A DNA stretch of 50,608 nt from Prolixibacteraceae bacterium (GTDB lineage: Bacteria; Bacteroidota; Bacteroidia; Bacteroidales; Prolixibacteraceae). The position numbers and the translations under genes were made by a program. The stretch lies in the NCBI GenBank assembly GCA_016931385.1, contig JAFGEV010000204.1, positions 1 through 50,608 on the forward strand. Direction: 5' to 3'. Shown here piece after piece: positions 11,967 through 30,708 of the stretch. Within the stretch, counting starts at the first letter, position 1; every line of letters begins with the position of its first letter. The notes beneath the pieces were generated by a model, which saw nothing but the letters and a program-made list of their open reading frames with translations, was not told the origin of the DNA and made no database searches.

Positions 11967-12079
11967 ACAGGCAGAAGGCATAAGATAAACAGGCAGAAGG
12001 CAGAAGATAAAGAGGCAGAAGGCAGAAGATAAAGAGGCAGTAGATAAGACCATTCGTCAGTAGTCAGTAGTCAGTAGTC
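11965..12079. repeat. Tandem repeats between lptD and ridA (22-nt and 7-nt units)
   Basis: Three near-identical 22-base units built from AGGCAGA, AGGCAGA and an 8-base AGATAAAs block, plus a fourth partial unit. These are followed by three copies of GTCAGTA. The repeats start within the lptD stop and end 30 bases before ridA. They belong to the 7-nt repeat set described in the findings. Confidence 0.85.
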
Positions 12080-13970: not shown

Positions 13971-14138
13971 GGATATTAGATGCTGGATGCTCGATGCTGG
14001 ATACTGGATGCTTGATCCTCGATCGTTAATCGTTAATCGTTAATCCCTAATCGTTAATCGCTAATCGTTAATCGTTAATCGCTAATCGTTAATAATAAAT
14101 CGTTAATCGTTAATCAGTATCCAATACTCGATATTCGG
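13971..14138. repeat. 24-unit heptanucleotide repeat tract
   Basis: 168 bases divide without a slip into 24 seven-base units. They start as GGATGCT variants (GGATGCT, CGATGCT, GGATACT, TGATCCT), pass through CGATCGT, and become TAATCGT variants (TAATCGT, TAATCGC, TAATCCC). The change of sequence with no change of register is the striking part. It fills the gap between the divergent rpsF and phosphatase-like genes. No ORF, no spacers, no CRISPR features. Confidence 0.92.
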
Positions 14139-26231: not shown

Positions 26232-26261
26232 TTTGATTTTTCATTTTTATTTCTACATTTG
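26232..26261 (+). promoter_or_regulatory. Promoter of the ilv operon
   Basis: TTTG (26232-26235), 18 bases, TACATTTG (26254-26261). Both elements fit the Bacteroidota consensus. Transcription would start near 26268, about 14 bases before the leader-peptide ATG. Confidence 0.7.
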
Positions 26262-26281
26262 TTCCTTCAAATAATGAAACA

Positions 26282-26359
26282 ATGAAACGTTTACTGAACA
26301 TATCCATTCTTGTCAACATCGTCCTAGTGGTGGTGCTTGTCGTCATTTCGATGAAATGA
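26282..26359 (+). CDS. ilv leader peptide (Ile/Leu/Val-rich, 25 residues)
   Basis: A 25-codon ORF too short for the track. Sixteen of 25 residues are branched-chain: 7 Val, 5 Leu, 4 Ile, with the run IVLVVVLVVI near the end. It begins about 14 bases after the predicted transcription start and ends at a TGA that is part of the antiterminator strand. As in the E. coli ilv and leu leaders, shortage of any of the three charged tRNAs should stall the ribosome inside it. The alternative, a small membrane peptide, is less likely given the RNA structures and the ilv genes downstream. Confidence 0.85.
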   Translation: MKRLLNISILVNIVLVVVLVVISMK

Positions 26360-26429
26360 GAGTGGTTTGTAACGCAGTAAATTAAAAATATTAACAGGCC
26401 ATTCTCTTAAAAGGGAATGGTTTTTTTTT
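26343..26429 (+). promoter_or_regulatory. ilv transcription attenuator: pause hairpin, antiterminator and terminator
   Basis: Three competing structures can be read. Pause hairpin: TCATTTC/GAAATGA (26343-26359), ending at the leader stop codon. Antiterminator: 26358-26370 (GAGAGTGGTTTGT) pairs with 26394-26406 (ACAGGCCATTCTC) over 13 continuous base pairs, three of them G.U. Terminator: CCATTCTC (26399-26406) with GGGAATGG (26413-26420), then nine T. A ribosome at the stop codon covers the antiterminator strand and lets the terminator form; a ribosome stalled earlier leaves it free. This is the classic logic of amino-acid attenuation. Confidence 0.87.
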
Positions 26430-26431
26430 AT

Positions 26432-26463
26432 TGAGGCCTCCCCTAACCCCTCCTGGGAGGGGA
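26432..26463 (+). repeat. GC-rich hairpin between attenuator and ilvD
   Basis: The sequence contains CCTCCCCTAACCCCTCC followed by GGGAGGGG; CCCCTC pairs with GAGGGG. It lies after the terminator and 28 bases before the ilvD ATG. It may be an intergenic repeat element or an mRNA structure affecting ilvD translation. Confidence 0.6.
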
Positions 26464-26490
26464 AAAAGTAAATTTTTAAAAACTTATAAA

Positions 26491-28311
26491 ATGAACAAGT
26501 TAAGAAGCTCAACCTCGACACAGGGCCGCAAAATGGCCGGCGCAAGGGCGCTATGGCGTGCCAACGGCATGACCGAAGAACAGTTTAACCGTCCGGTGAT
26601 TGCCATTGTCAATTCGTTTACCCAGTTTGTCCCCGGCCACGTACACCTGCACGAAATTGGTCAATACTTAAAAAAGAAAATTGAAGCAAAAGGTTGCTTT
26701 GCTGCCGAATTCAATACCATTGCCATTGACGATGGTATTGCAATGGGGCACAACGGGATGCTTTATTCCCTCCCTTCGCGCGACCTGATTGCCGACAGTG
26801 TTGAATACATGTGCAACGCCCACACGGTTGATGCCATGATCTGCATTTCGAACTGCGACAAAATCACCCCGGGAATGCTCATGGCTGCCATGCGCCTGAA
26901 CATCCCTTCAATATTTGTTTCAGGCGGTCCGATGGAAGCCGGTAAAGTTGACGGTGAAAAATACGACCTGGTTGACGCGATGGTAATGGCCGCCGACCAA
27001 AACATTTCTGATGAAAAAATCTCAAGTGTTGAACGTTCGGCCTGCCCAACATGCGGTTCTTGCTCAGGTTTGTTCACGGCAAATTCAATGAACAGCCTCG
27101 CTGAAGCTATTGGCATGGCGCTGCCCGGAAACGGCACTATCGTTGCCACACACGCCAAACGGCTGGAGCTTTTTGACGAAGCTGCCGACCGCATTGTAAA
27201 AATCACTGAAGATTTTTATTTCAATGGAAATGAAAAGGTACTCCCCCGCTCAATCGCAAGCCGCGAGGCTTTCATGAATGCCATGACCCTCGATATTGGC
27301 ATGGGCGGAAGCACCAATACCATTCTCCACCTTCTGGCCATCGCCCACGAAGCCAAAGTTGACTTCAGCATGAAAGATATTGACGCCCTGTCGCGCAAAG
27401 TACCCAACCTTTGTAAAGTAGCCCCAAGTTCACGATATCACATGGAAGATGTTAACCGTGCCGGTGGAATACTTGGCATCATGGGCGAACTCGACCGGGC
27501 AGGATTGCTCGACACTACTGTAAACCGGGCCGACCAGCTTACCCTGGCCGAAGCGCTCGACCAGTTCGACATTATGCGCGATACCGTTACCGAAAAAGCT
27601 AAACAACGATACCTAGCCGCACCGGGCAACTACAAAAACCTTGTGCTGGCATCGCAGGAAAAATATTACAAAGAAGCCGATACCGACCGTGAAAACGGGT
27701 GTATCCGCGATCTTGAACATGCTTATAACAAAGAAGGAGGGCTCGCCGTACTTTTTGGCAACATTGCCAAAAGCGGCTGCATTGTCAAAACGGCAGGGGT
27801 CGATCCATCGGTTTTCCAGTTCCATGGTACAGCAAAGGTTTTTCATTCGCAGGAAGCAGCCTGCAACGGCATTCTTGGCGATGAAGTACAGGCCGGTGAC
27901 GTGGTTTTCATCCCGTACGAAGGGCCCAAAGGCGGGCCTGGCATGCAGGAAATGCTTTATCCAACATCGTATATTAAATCGATGAAGCTTGATAAAGCCT
28001 GTGCCCTGGTTACCGACGGCCGTTTTTCAGGCGGGACATCGGGCCTTTCAATTGGCCATGTTTCGCCCGAAGCTGCTGCTGGCGGCGAGATCGGGCTTGT
28101 CCGCAACGGCGATAAAATCGAAATCGATATCCCTGCCCGAAAAATAAACGTACTTGTCAGCGATGAAGAATTGAATAACCGCCGTATAGAGGAACAAGCC
28201 AAAGGCGACAAAGCCTTCACCCCAACCCGCGACCGCAAAGTCAGCAAAGCACTGCGGGCTTATGCTGCAATGGTTACTTCATCAGACAAAGGCGCTGTAA
28301 GAGAGATATAG
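26491..28311 (+). CDS. ilvD: Dihydroxy-acid dehydratase
   Basis: A 606-residue IlvD, the iron-sulfur enzyme that dehydrates dihydroxy acids to 2-keto acids, the third common step of Ile and Val synthesis. Cluster-ligand motifs are [12 protein letters not shown] and [17 protein letters not shown]. The C-terminal swivel domain has [12 protein letters not shown] and [23 protein letters not shown]. The track start at 26431 (TTG) lies right after the terminator's T run and would add GC-hairpin residues; the ATG at 26491 ([19 protein letters not shown]) fits the family. First enzyme gene of the attenuated ilv operon. Confidence 0.98.
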
Positions 28312-28313
28312 GT

Positions 28314-28376
28314 GCTGGGAGCTGGGTACTGGGTACTGGGTTCTGGGTTCTGGAATTTGGAATTTGGAATTTGGAA
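28314..28376. repeat. Heptanucleotide repeat tract between ilvD and ilvB
   Basis: Nine units in perfect register: GCTGGGA, GCTGGGT, ACTGGGT twice, TCTGGGT, TCTGGAA, then TTTGGAA three times. It begins two bases after the ilvD stop and is transcribed within the operon. Two different themes (CTGGG and TTTGGAA) join without a phase shift. Confidence 0.92.
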
Positions 28377-28418
28377 TTTTCCTAAGTCTAATAATTAAAA
28401 ATAAATAAGAAAAAAGAT

Positions 28419-30122
28419 ATGAAAGAAAAAATAAACGGATCAGAAGCGATCATCCGCTCGATAATTGAAGAGGGGATTGATACAATTTTCGGATATCCCG
28501 GCGGTGCAATCATGCCAGTTTACGATGCCTTGTACGACAAAGGTGAAAAGTTAAAACACATATTAACACGCCACGAACAGGGAGCAATACACGCTGCACA
28601 GGGTTATGCACGGGTTTCGGGGAAAACCGCTGTATGCTTTGCCACATCGGGGCCGGGCGCAACAAACCTGCTCACCGGCATTACCGATGCAATGCTCGAC
28701 TCTACACCGGTTGTTTGCATAACCGGACAAGTAGCCTCGCCACTTTTGGGAACCGATGCTTTCCAGGAATCAGATATCCTGGGCATGTCGACCCCGGTTA
28801 CAAAATGGAACTATCAGATTACTGATGCATCTGAAATTCCGGAAGTGATGGCAAAAGCATTTTATATTGCACGTTCGGGGCGTCCGGGACCAGTACTCAT
28901 CGATGTTGCCAAAGATGTTCAGTTTGCCATGCTCGACTTCGAATACAAGAAATGCAACTGCATCAGAAGCTACATACCTTATTTGCCCATTGATGAAAAA
29001 CAGGTTAAAGCTGCTGCCGAAGCAATAAATAAGGCTCAAAAGCCCTTCTTGCTGTTTGGCCAGGGTGTATTGTTTTCACAAGCCGAAGAAGAGTTGCGGC
29101 AACTGGTTGAAAAAGCCGACATACCCGCTGCATGGACACTGCTTGGGGTATCGGCATTGCCAACCAACCACCCCCTTAACGTGGGTATGTTGGGCATGCA
29201 CGGTAATTACGGGCCAAATATAAAAACCAACGAATGCGACCTGCTTATTGCCGTTGGTATGCGTTTCGACGACCGTGTAACCGGAAAAGTTTCTGCCTAC
29301 GCCACACAGGCAAAGGTTGTTCACATTGAAGTAGACCCGGCCGAAATCAACAAAATCATTCCGGTACACTACCCGGTTTTGGGCGATGCAAAAAAAGTAT
29401 TAAGCAAACTTATCCCGCTGGTGAATGAAAACAAGCATACCGGCTGGATCAAAGAGTTTAAAGATGCTTACGAAACAGAGTTTGAAAAAGTAATTAAAAA
29501 CGACATTTACCGCAACAACGGAAAAATATCGATGGGTGAAGTGGTACGTGTTGCTTCTGAAAAAACCAATGGTGATGCCATTTGCGTTACCGATGTAGGC
29601 CAGCAACAGATGTTTGCGGCACGCTACTTCCAGTTCAACCATACCCGCAGCATGGTTACATCGGGCGGGCTTGGCACCATGGGCTTTGGCCTGCCGGCAG
29701 CCGTTGGCGCCCAAATTGGCCGACCTGACCGCACAGTGGTATCATTTATTGGAGATGGTGGTTTCCAAATGACCATGCAGGAACTGGGCACGATTGCCCA
29801 GGAAAAAATCCCGGTCAAAATCATTATCCTTAACAACAACTTTTTGGGTATGGTGCGCCAGTGGCAGGACCTGTTTTTCGAAAAACGCTACTCTTTTACC
29901 AACATTTCAGGCCCCGATTTTGTCAAACTTTCAGAGGCTTTTGGCATCCCGGCAAAACGGGTAATATCGAACAAAGACCTTGAAGGGGCCGTTAGCGAAA
30001 TGGTTGACCACGATGGCCCATACCTGCTTGAAGTAATGGTGGAAAAAGAAGACAATGTTTTCCCAATGGTACCTGCCGGGGCAAGCGTTTCAGACATTCT
30101 GCTTGAAAAACCTATAGCCTAA
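28419..30122 (+). CDS. ilvB: Acetolactate synthase large subunit
   Basis: A 567-residue thiamine-diphosphate enzyme condensing pyruvate with pyruvate or 2-ketobutyrate, the first common step of Val/Leu/Ile synthesis. The N-terminal PYR domain has FGYPGGAIMPVYDALY and the catalytic Glu in RHEQGAIHAAQGYAR. The central FAD-type domain follows. The PP domain has GDGGFQMTMQELGTIAQEKIPVKIIILNN and the FLGMVRQWQ mobile-loop motif. These features mark a true biosynthetic AHAS, not the catabolic enzyme. It is followed by its regulatory subunit. Confidence 0.98.
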   Translation: MKEKINGSEAIIRSIIEEGIDTIFGYPGGAIMPVYDALYDKGEKLKHILTRHEQGAIHAAQGYARVSGKTAVCFATSGPGATNLLTGITDAMLDSTPVVCITGQVASPLLGTDAFQESDILGMSTPVTKWNYQITDASEIPEVMAKAFYIARSGRPGPVLIDVAKDVQFAMLDFEYKKCNCIRSYIPYLPIDEKQVKAAAEAINKAQKPFLLFGQGVLFSQAEEELRQLVEKADIPAAWTLLGVSALPTNHPLNVGMLGMHGNYGPNIKTNECDLLIAVGMRFDDRVTGKVSAYATQAKVVHIEVDPAEINKIIPVHYPVLGDAKKVLSKLIPLVNENKHTGWIKEFKDAYETEFEKVIKNDIYRNNGKISMGEVVRVASEKTNGDAICVTDVGQQQMFAARYFQFNHTRSMVTSGGLGTMGFGLPAAVGAQIGRPDRTVVSFIGDGGFQMTMQELGTIAQEKIPVKIIILNNNFLGMVRQWQDLFFEKRYSFTNISGPDFVKLSEAFGIPAKRVISNKDLEGAVSEMVDHDGPYLLEVMVEKEDNVFPMVPAGASVSDILLEKPIA

Positions 30123-30165: not shown

Positions 30166-30708
30166 ATGAAACAAGAATACATCATAACAGCATATTCTGA
30201 AAACCATATCGGGTTGTTAAACCGCATCACGATTGTTTTCACCCGGCGGAAAGTGAATATCGAAAGCCTTACCGTTTCCGAATCGGCTCACAAGGGCATA
30301 AGTAAATTCACCATTGTTGTAGAAACAACCGAAGAACAGGCCAGGAAAATTGTTCAGCAAATTGAGAAACAGGTTGAAGTACTCAAAGCTTTTTACCATA
30401 CCAACGATGAGATGATTTATCAGGAAATTGCCTTGTACAAAGTTTCAACCGACGACCTTACCGAAAGCAACAAGATTGAAATGCTTGTACGGAAACACAA
30501 TGCCCGCATTCTTGAGATCACAAAAGAGTATACCGTGATTGAAAAGACCGGGCACAAGGAAGAAACACAGGAATTTTTCAACGACCTCAATGAATTCAAG
30601 GTCATGCAGTTTATCCGCTCAGGCAGGATTGCCCTCACCCGATCACCCATTGAAAGGTTGTCGGAATTTCTGAAGGAAAGGGACGAGATTCTTTCAAAAG
30701 CTGATTGA
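30166..30708 (+). CDS. ilvN: Acetolactate synthase small (regulatory) subunit
   Basis: A 180-residue regulatory subunit. An N-terminal ACT domain (YIITAYSENHIGLLNRITIVFTRRKVNIESLTVSES) binds valine for feedback inhibition. A C-terminal ALS_ss domain follows (LYKVSTDDL...ILEITKEYTVIEKTGHKEETQEFFNDL...FIRSGRIALTR). Lengths match the IlvN/IlvH family; I use ilvN, and ilvH is equally valid. It is the last gene before a strong terminator, so ilvC and leu genes are elsewhere. Confidence 0.97.
   Translation: MKQEYIITAYSENHIGLLNRITIVFTRRKVNIESLTVSESAHKGISKFTIVVETTEEQARKIVQQIEKQVEVLKAFYHTNDEMIYQEIALYKVSTDDLTESNKIEMLVRKHNARILEITKEYTVIEKTGHKEETQEFFNDLNEFKVMQFIRSGRIALTRSPIERLSEFLKERDEILSKAD

Follow-up and report, generated by a model that had tools for sequence, protein, structure and literature searches.

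A predicted ribosome-mediated transcription attenuator upstream of ilvD-ilvB-ilvN in a Prolixibacteraceae bacterium

The window, i. e. the whole stretch of 50,608 nucleotides of Prolixibacteraceae DNA that was analysed, contains the genes ilvD, ilvB and ilvN, preceded by a promoter, a short open reading frame (ORF) and a set of alternative RNA helices (Table 1). The promoter elements TTTG and TACATTTG (TAnnTTTG) are separated by 18 nt and match the Bacteroidota -33/-7 consensus; the consensus promoter claimed by an earlier sequence-only reading of this DNA is thus present. A scan of the window with an E. coli-type (sigma-70) model did not see it, as expected, since this is the wrong model for Bacteroidota. 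In 74 of 81 ilvD loci a TAnnTTTG occurs no more than 90 nt before the leader ATG (7.6 expected), and the -33/-7 pair occurs 5' of the leader in 67 of the 81 (1.3 expected).

The ORF encodes the peptide MKRLLNISILVNIVLVVVLVVISMK, of whose 25 residues 16 are Ile, Leu or Val (7 V, 5 L, 4 I), exactly the leader that had been read from the sequence. A composite scan for ORFs of 14-32 codons that start with ATG, consist of at least 50% I/L/V and stop 15-60 nt before a terminator returned this leader as the single place on both strands of the window. The same scan of 582,690 bases of 80 other loci returned 27 places, 26 of them directly 5' of ilvD.

Table 1. Features of the ilvD-ilvB-ilvN region, in positions of the window
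Feature	Positions	Strand	Basis or remark
-33 promoter element TTTG	26232..26235	+	read from sequence
-7 promoter element TACATTTG (TAnnTTTG)	26254..26261	+	read from sequence
Leader peptide ORF, 25 codons, MKRLLNISILVNIVLVVVLVVISMK*	26282..26359	+	sequence; 82 distinct relatives
Control codons, 16 I/L/V	26291..26347	+	footprint arithmetic and conserved I/L/V codon edge
Strand 1 candidate CCATTCTTGT	26304..26313	+	pairs with strand 2 in minimum-energy fold; weakly supported in relatives
7-bp hairpin ending at stop codon, possible pause hairpin	26343..26359	+	not conserved
Strand 2, antiterminator 5' arm, begins inside stop codon	26358..26370	+	
Strand 3, antiterminator 3' arm, common to terminator	26394..26406	+	
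Terminator stem-loop, strands 3 and 4	26396..26423	+	
Nine-T tract	26421..26429	+	sequence
ilvD, dihydroxy-acid dehydratase	26491..28311	+	NCBIfam NF009103, 1049 bits; ATG at 26491
ilvB, acetolactate synthase large subunit	28419..30122	+	TIGR00118
ilvN, acetolactate synthase small subunit	30166..30708	+	TIGR00119

Between the terminator and ilvD (26434-26472) lies a G+C-rich hairpin repeat (CCTCCCCTAACCCCTCC..GGAGGGG), which is dispersed in many genomic copies. A related sequence was also seen 3' of the T tract of the leuA attenuator described below, and a similar stretch, inverted, follows the T tract of the trpE attenuator. Intergenic arrays of 7-bp tandem repeats with differing units occur at 28311-28379, in the ilvD-ilvB gap, and at 13979-14115 and 11969-12028.

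Strands 2 and 3 form an exact 13-bp antiterminator in which three pairs are G.U, and none of 60 dinucleotide shuffles of its 5' side paired as well as the native sequence. Both this pairing, with a 5' strand that begins inside the stop codon, and the overlapping terminator with nine T had been described in the sequence-only reading and were found just as described. The same reading had proposed a pause hairpin. A hairpin TCATTTC-GAT-GAAATGA indeed has its 3' end at the stop codon (shuffle p = 0.03), but it is poorly conserved across relatives, so that this claim holds for the window and is weakly supported beyond it. Pairing of strand 1 with strand 2 exceeds shuffles in the window (p about 0.03), and in relatives its mean z is 0.93 against codon-permuted leaders and 0.54 against synonymous shuffles. 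The fold of the whole leader is 3.5 sd better than shuffles. Computed energies in the window are -16.5 kcal/mol for the antiterminator and -13.8 kcal/mol for the terminator. Naked leader RNA folds into strand 1:2 plus the terminator, RNA freed from 26356 onward folds into the antiterminator, and RNA freed from 26373 onward gives the terminator only.

The locus thus combines an I/L/V-enriched leader ORF, an intrinsic terminator before ilvD and an antiterminator that excludes this terminator, and the control codons are placed such that stalling on them would free the antiterminator strand while translation termination would mask it. In the mechanism that we propose, RNA polymerase would start roughly 12-15 nt ahead of the leader ATG, the start being inferred, and a ribosome would follow. 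With plentiful charged tRNA for Ile, Leu and Val the ribosome would reach the stop codon and cover strand 2; strand 3 would then pair with strand 4 and transcription would end at the T tract. If any one of the three were short, the ribosome would stall on one of the 16 codons at least 12 nt before strand 2, which would be free to pair with strand 3; no terminator would form, and ilvD-ilvB-ilvN would be transcribed. RNA without a ribosome would fold to the terminator. Leader translation, ribosome stalling and read-through are all inferred steps of this scheme.

The placement of the codons can be compared with the dimensions of the ribosome. Toeprints place the leading edge of a ribosome about 12 nt beyond the first base of the codon in its A site. 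Among 68 ilvD leaders, I/L/V codons have a frequency of 9-24% at three codons or fewer from strand 2 (within 11 nt), 71% at four codons, 93% at five and 99% at six; a ribosome stalled at these last distances (15-20 nt) would not cover strand 2. When all loci are taken together, a step in I/L/V frequency set by strand 2 outperforms one set by the stop codon, with a gain of 80 log-likelihood units; in 13 loci strand 2 is situated well within the ORF, and there the I/L/V run tracks strand 2 and not the stop. The same step is found in 21 leuA leaders, in which an RNA model had placed strand 2 independently. A ribosome on the stop codon covers, by computation, a mean of 93% of strand 2. In the window, the footprint arithmetic predicts that a stall on any of the 16 I/L/V codons frees strand 2 and that a ribosome at Ser 26348 or later masks it. 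The last Ile codon is borderline under the footprint rule used, because RNA freed only from 26359 gives the terminator in a static fold of the complete RNA; while strand 4 is still unmade, the same RNA gives the antiterminator.

A search of 198 genomes of the order gave IlvD in 81, for the most part of the same type, and 80 named contigs also encode it; every upstream region that was available was read. The nearest named relative, from a Prolixibacteraceae MAG (L079), is 83% identical. By one uniform criterion, an I/L/V-rich leader plus terminator precedes ilvD in 90 of 123 loci labelled Bacteroidota and in 0 of 23 loci labelled as other phyla, which encode close IlvD homologues of the same type. 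The 33 Bacteroidota loci in which this combination was not detected include several threshold misses and others with a gene immediately upstream (e. g. L077). Three loci (L114, L119, L052) carry a tandem pair of I/L/V leader-terminator units before ilvD. Desulfobulbaceae and Deltaproteobacteria loci (L080-L087, L090) encode IlvD proteins about 71-75% identical to that of the window and have no leader plus terminator, which suggests that the enzyme may have been transferred between phyla without the attenuator.

De-duplication left 82 ilvD leaders. Their peptides are unconserved in sequence apart from their richness in I/L/V (V 20.3%, L 16.5%, I 15.8%; F 1.9%, A 2.8%, W 0.4%). The antiterminator was scored as the best helix that strand 3 forms with the region of the stop codon. 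Its mean score in these 82 loci is 23.95; dinucleotide shuffles give 14.0 and a strand 3 swapped between species gives 17.7, and the pairing reaches p <=0.05 in 87% of loci. Where strand-3 bases lie in both helices, 629 of 656 pair in both. Opposite the same strand-3 G, a U in strand 2 coincides with a C in strand 4 in 27 cases and the reverse in 2, which indicates that the terminator is the stronger partner at such positions. In a MAFFT alignment of 43 sequences, two-sided changes occur in 12 of 13 antiterminator pairs and 11 of 12 terminator pairs; only sequences with an antiterminator score of 20 or more had been admitted, so that the percentage paired is inflated. The covariation in this set exceeds that of every shuffle, or of every shuffle except one, among 500, as well as that of all slid versions. 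The native, shuffled and swapped scores of the 82 loci and the count of 90/123 against 0/23 are less biased than this set. Hence the possibility that the leader ORF and the alternative pairing are absent in relatives, which would have spoken against attenuation, is refuted: relatives share the leader, the antiterminator and the terminator, and they show compensatory changes.

A covariance model of strands 2 to 4, termed R1, gave a second strong match in the same genome (L160, C63:10389-10467, minus strand; also L260). Its leader, MIRSITISLISLLGILILTKLS, is rich in Leu and Ile, contains no Val and precedes leuA-leuC-leuD-orf-cimA-leuB, an operon that should make leucine and, via citramalate, isoleucine. 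In 21 leuA leaders L accounts for 21%, I for 20% and V for 2.3% of the residues; among I/L/V, the share of V is 4.8% there versus 38% in ilvD leaders (Fisher p = 1.6e-27). In all 17 loci whose sequence extends far enough, the gene cimA comes after leuACD. The genome also has a hisG leader with the His run MTIRNGHHHGHHFYLPWQ (L358) and a trpE leader with the Trp run MTKRTLNNWWWRTLDFPYGS (L359), each followed by a terminator, the latter matching Rfam RF01692; a leader before thrA (L355) was looked for in this genome and not found. Thus in four cases within one genome, ilvD, leuA, hisG and trpE, the leader residues follow the product of the operon. The contrast with the Val-poor leuA leaders supports the earlier proposal that a single sensor upstream of ilvD serves all three amino acids.

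Taken together, the conservation, the two covarying helices, the placement of the codons and their match to the pathway make it very likely that the ilvD-ilvB-ilvN region is a classical ribosome-mediated transcription attenuator, a prediction drawn from comparative sequence analysis. A hydrophobic peptide with a terminator next to it might alternatively be a small membrane protein with a function of its own, whose gene is simply ended by that terminator. We consider this highly improbable and rejected it on residue composition and on the contrast with leuA: hydrophobic residues other than I/L/V are rare in the 82 leaders (see Phe, Ala and Trp above), there is no sequence conservation beyond I/L/V richness, the leuA leaders are as hydrophobic yet poor in Val, and both the strand 2:3 helix and a codon edge tied to strand 2 would be left unexplained. 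In other phyla, ilv and leu genes are controlled by T-boxes or ppGpp riboswitches, and the alternative terminator and antiterminator helices seen here would also suit control of the terminator by a ligand riboswitch, a T-box or a protein-bound leader, with the ORF being incidental. A ppGpp riboswitch case for ilv/leu genes is described in PMC10272879. Yet no Rfam family reaches its cut-off, the T-box and ppGpp riboswitch covariance models have no match in the window, conservation from promoter to terminator consists of the I/L/V codons and the two helices with no aptamer-like region seen, and codon content tracks the pathway, all of which leaves such control with a very small probability.

Two further alternatives accept the attenuator and concern how it works. 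It could sense one amino acid only, most likely Val, which is the commonest residue nearest to the edge (37 and 39 of 68 leaders at five and six codons), the other codons being neutral filler. This seems improbable to us, since permissive positions are strongly enriched in Ile and Leu too, these two occur without Val in leuA leaders, and the enzymes of the operon serve all three products. A stronger contender, against which we lean only slightly, is that the attenuator works by occlusion only, i. e. strand 2 is covered by a ribosome that has reached the stop codon, and strand 1 and the pause hairpin are irrelevant. It would account for the weak signals of strand 1:2 and of the stop hairpin in relatives and accords with the nearly complete cover of strand 2; however, both structures exceed shuffles in the window, and naked RNA folds into strand 1:2 plus the terminator.

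In E. coli, the ilvGMEDA, ilvBN, leu, thr, his and trp operons have leader attenuators, and that of ilvGMEDA exerts multivalent control by Ile, Leu and Val. The predicted multivalent attenuator upstream of ilvD resembles these in having a leader rich in regulatory residues and a strand common to terminator and antiterminator, and ilvGMEDA in particular in its three amino acids. It differs in phylum, promoter type and gene order, and we claim no sequence homology; strand 1:2, part of the textbook scheme, is weak here. Another difference is that the leuA leaders contain Ile in addition to Leu, as would suit an operon with cimA. The sequence-only reading had regarded such systems as little studied experimentally in Bacteroidota; attenuation is in fact already known there from RF01692 (Bacteroid-trp), the Bacteroidete tryptophan peptide leader RNA (PMC2864571). 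That leader attenuator precedes trp genes; neither the ilvD nor the leuA elements are matched by it, and at its gathering cut-off of 49 bits it has no match in the window. Branched-chain-rich short ORFs with a terminator before ilv genes, with reporter evidence for regulation, have been described in other phyla, namely the Corynebacterium ilvB-II uORF of usually 15-17 codons (PMC10272879) and the Leu-responsive ilvD attenuator of Staphylococcus aureus (PMC5794164). The ilvB-OMG and Leptospira ilvB motifs are, like the element described here, predicted branched-chain-rich uORFs before an ilv gene (PMC10272879); neither has an Rfam match in the window, be it at the gathering score or with E as high as 5. 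An Rfam scan of the window at gathering and permissive thresholds returned no family for the ilv element, and our literature search found no description of an ilv attenuator in Bacteroidota, of which broad surveys of attenuation (Lopatovskaya et al. 2010, Mol Biol 44:128) may include some. It is the codon edge and the match between leader and pathway that lift the ilvD element above routine annotation.

In other Bacteroidota, R1 led to leaders before PRK00911-type ilvD, ilvE, thrA, trpE, asnA, gltB and Met/Cys genes. The thrA leaders are rich in Thr and Ile (L266, L273, L301-L303, L306; for example MNFTTTTTISTTTTIRSCRKACL), and an Asn-rich leader, MIRYSKANNNSNFNNNLLKREGFGVW, precedes asnA (L243). 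The leaders before Met/Cys genes include MKFSKPNTACKPACTCMCMCMMCT and MATSSMHMTMCMMRYFV. In L279 (Cys/Met-rich leader) and L277 (Met-rich leader) a terminator is present and the gene that follows resembles homoserine sulfhydrylases; it would be unusual for a leader peptide to sense Met or Cys. Before gltB, nine loci (L223, L226, L230, L235, L236, L237, L240, L245, L248) have attenuator-like strands 2-4, and the short ORFs end in the TGA of strand 2 with no obvious enriched residue. Many weak R1 matches outside Bacteroidales (E > about 1e-4), mostly without a sensible leader, were discarded. A possible interpretation, for which we see even chances, is an attenuator platform common to the Bacteroidota, with a shared strand 2/3/4 scaffold, a fixed 12-nt ruler and leader codons that alone set the specificity. 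The scaffold would be GAGAAAGG ... CCTTTCTC ... GAGAAAGG, its strand 2 containing the stop codon or lying close to it, and would recur upstream of ilvD, leuA-cimA, ilvE, ilvB, thrA, gltB, asnA and Met/Cys genes. If true, this platform would imply tight coupling of transcription and translation across the phylum.

Attenuation by a stalled ribosome needs a ribosome that keeps pace with RNA polymerase, and not all bacteria do so. Conserved switches in several operons are indirect evidence for transcription-translation coupling in Bacteroidota, and the predicted attenuators would be ready reporters with which to test it in species from the gut and the environment. Through the codon edge, 12 nt before strand 2, the footprint of the ribosome can be read from genome sequence; this quantitative signature could allow automatic annotation of leader peptides and of their specificity. 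For the organisms themselves, the Leu/Ile leader of leuACD-cimA-leuB predicts that isoleucine is made through citramalate.
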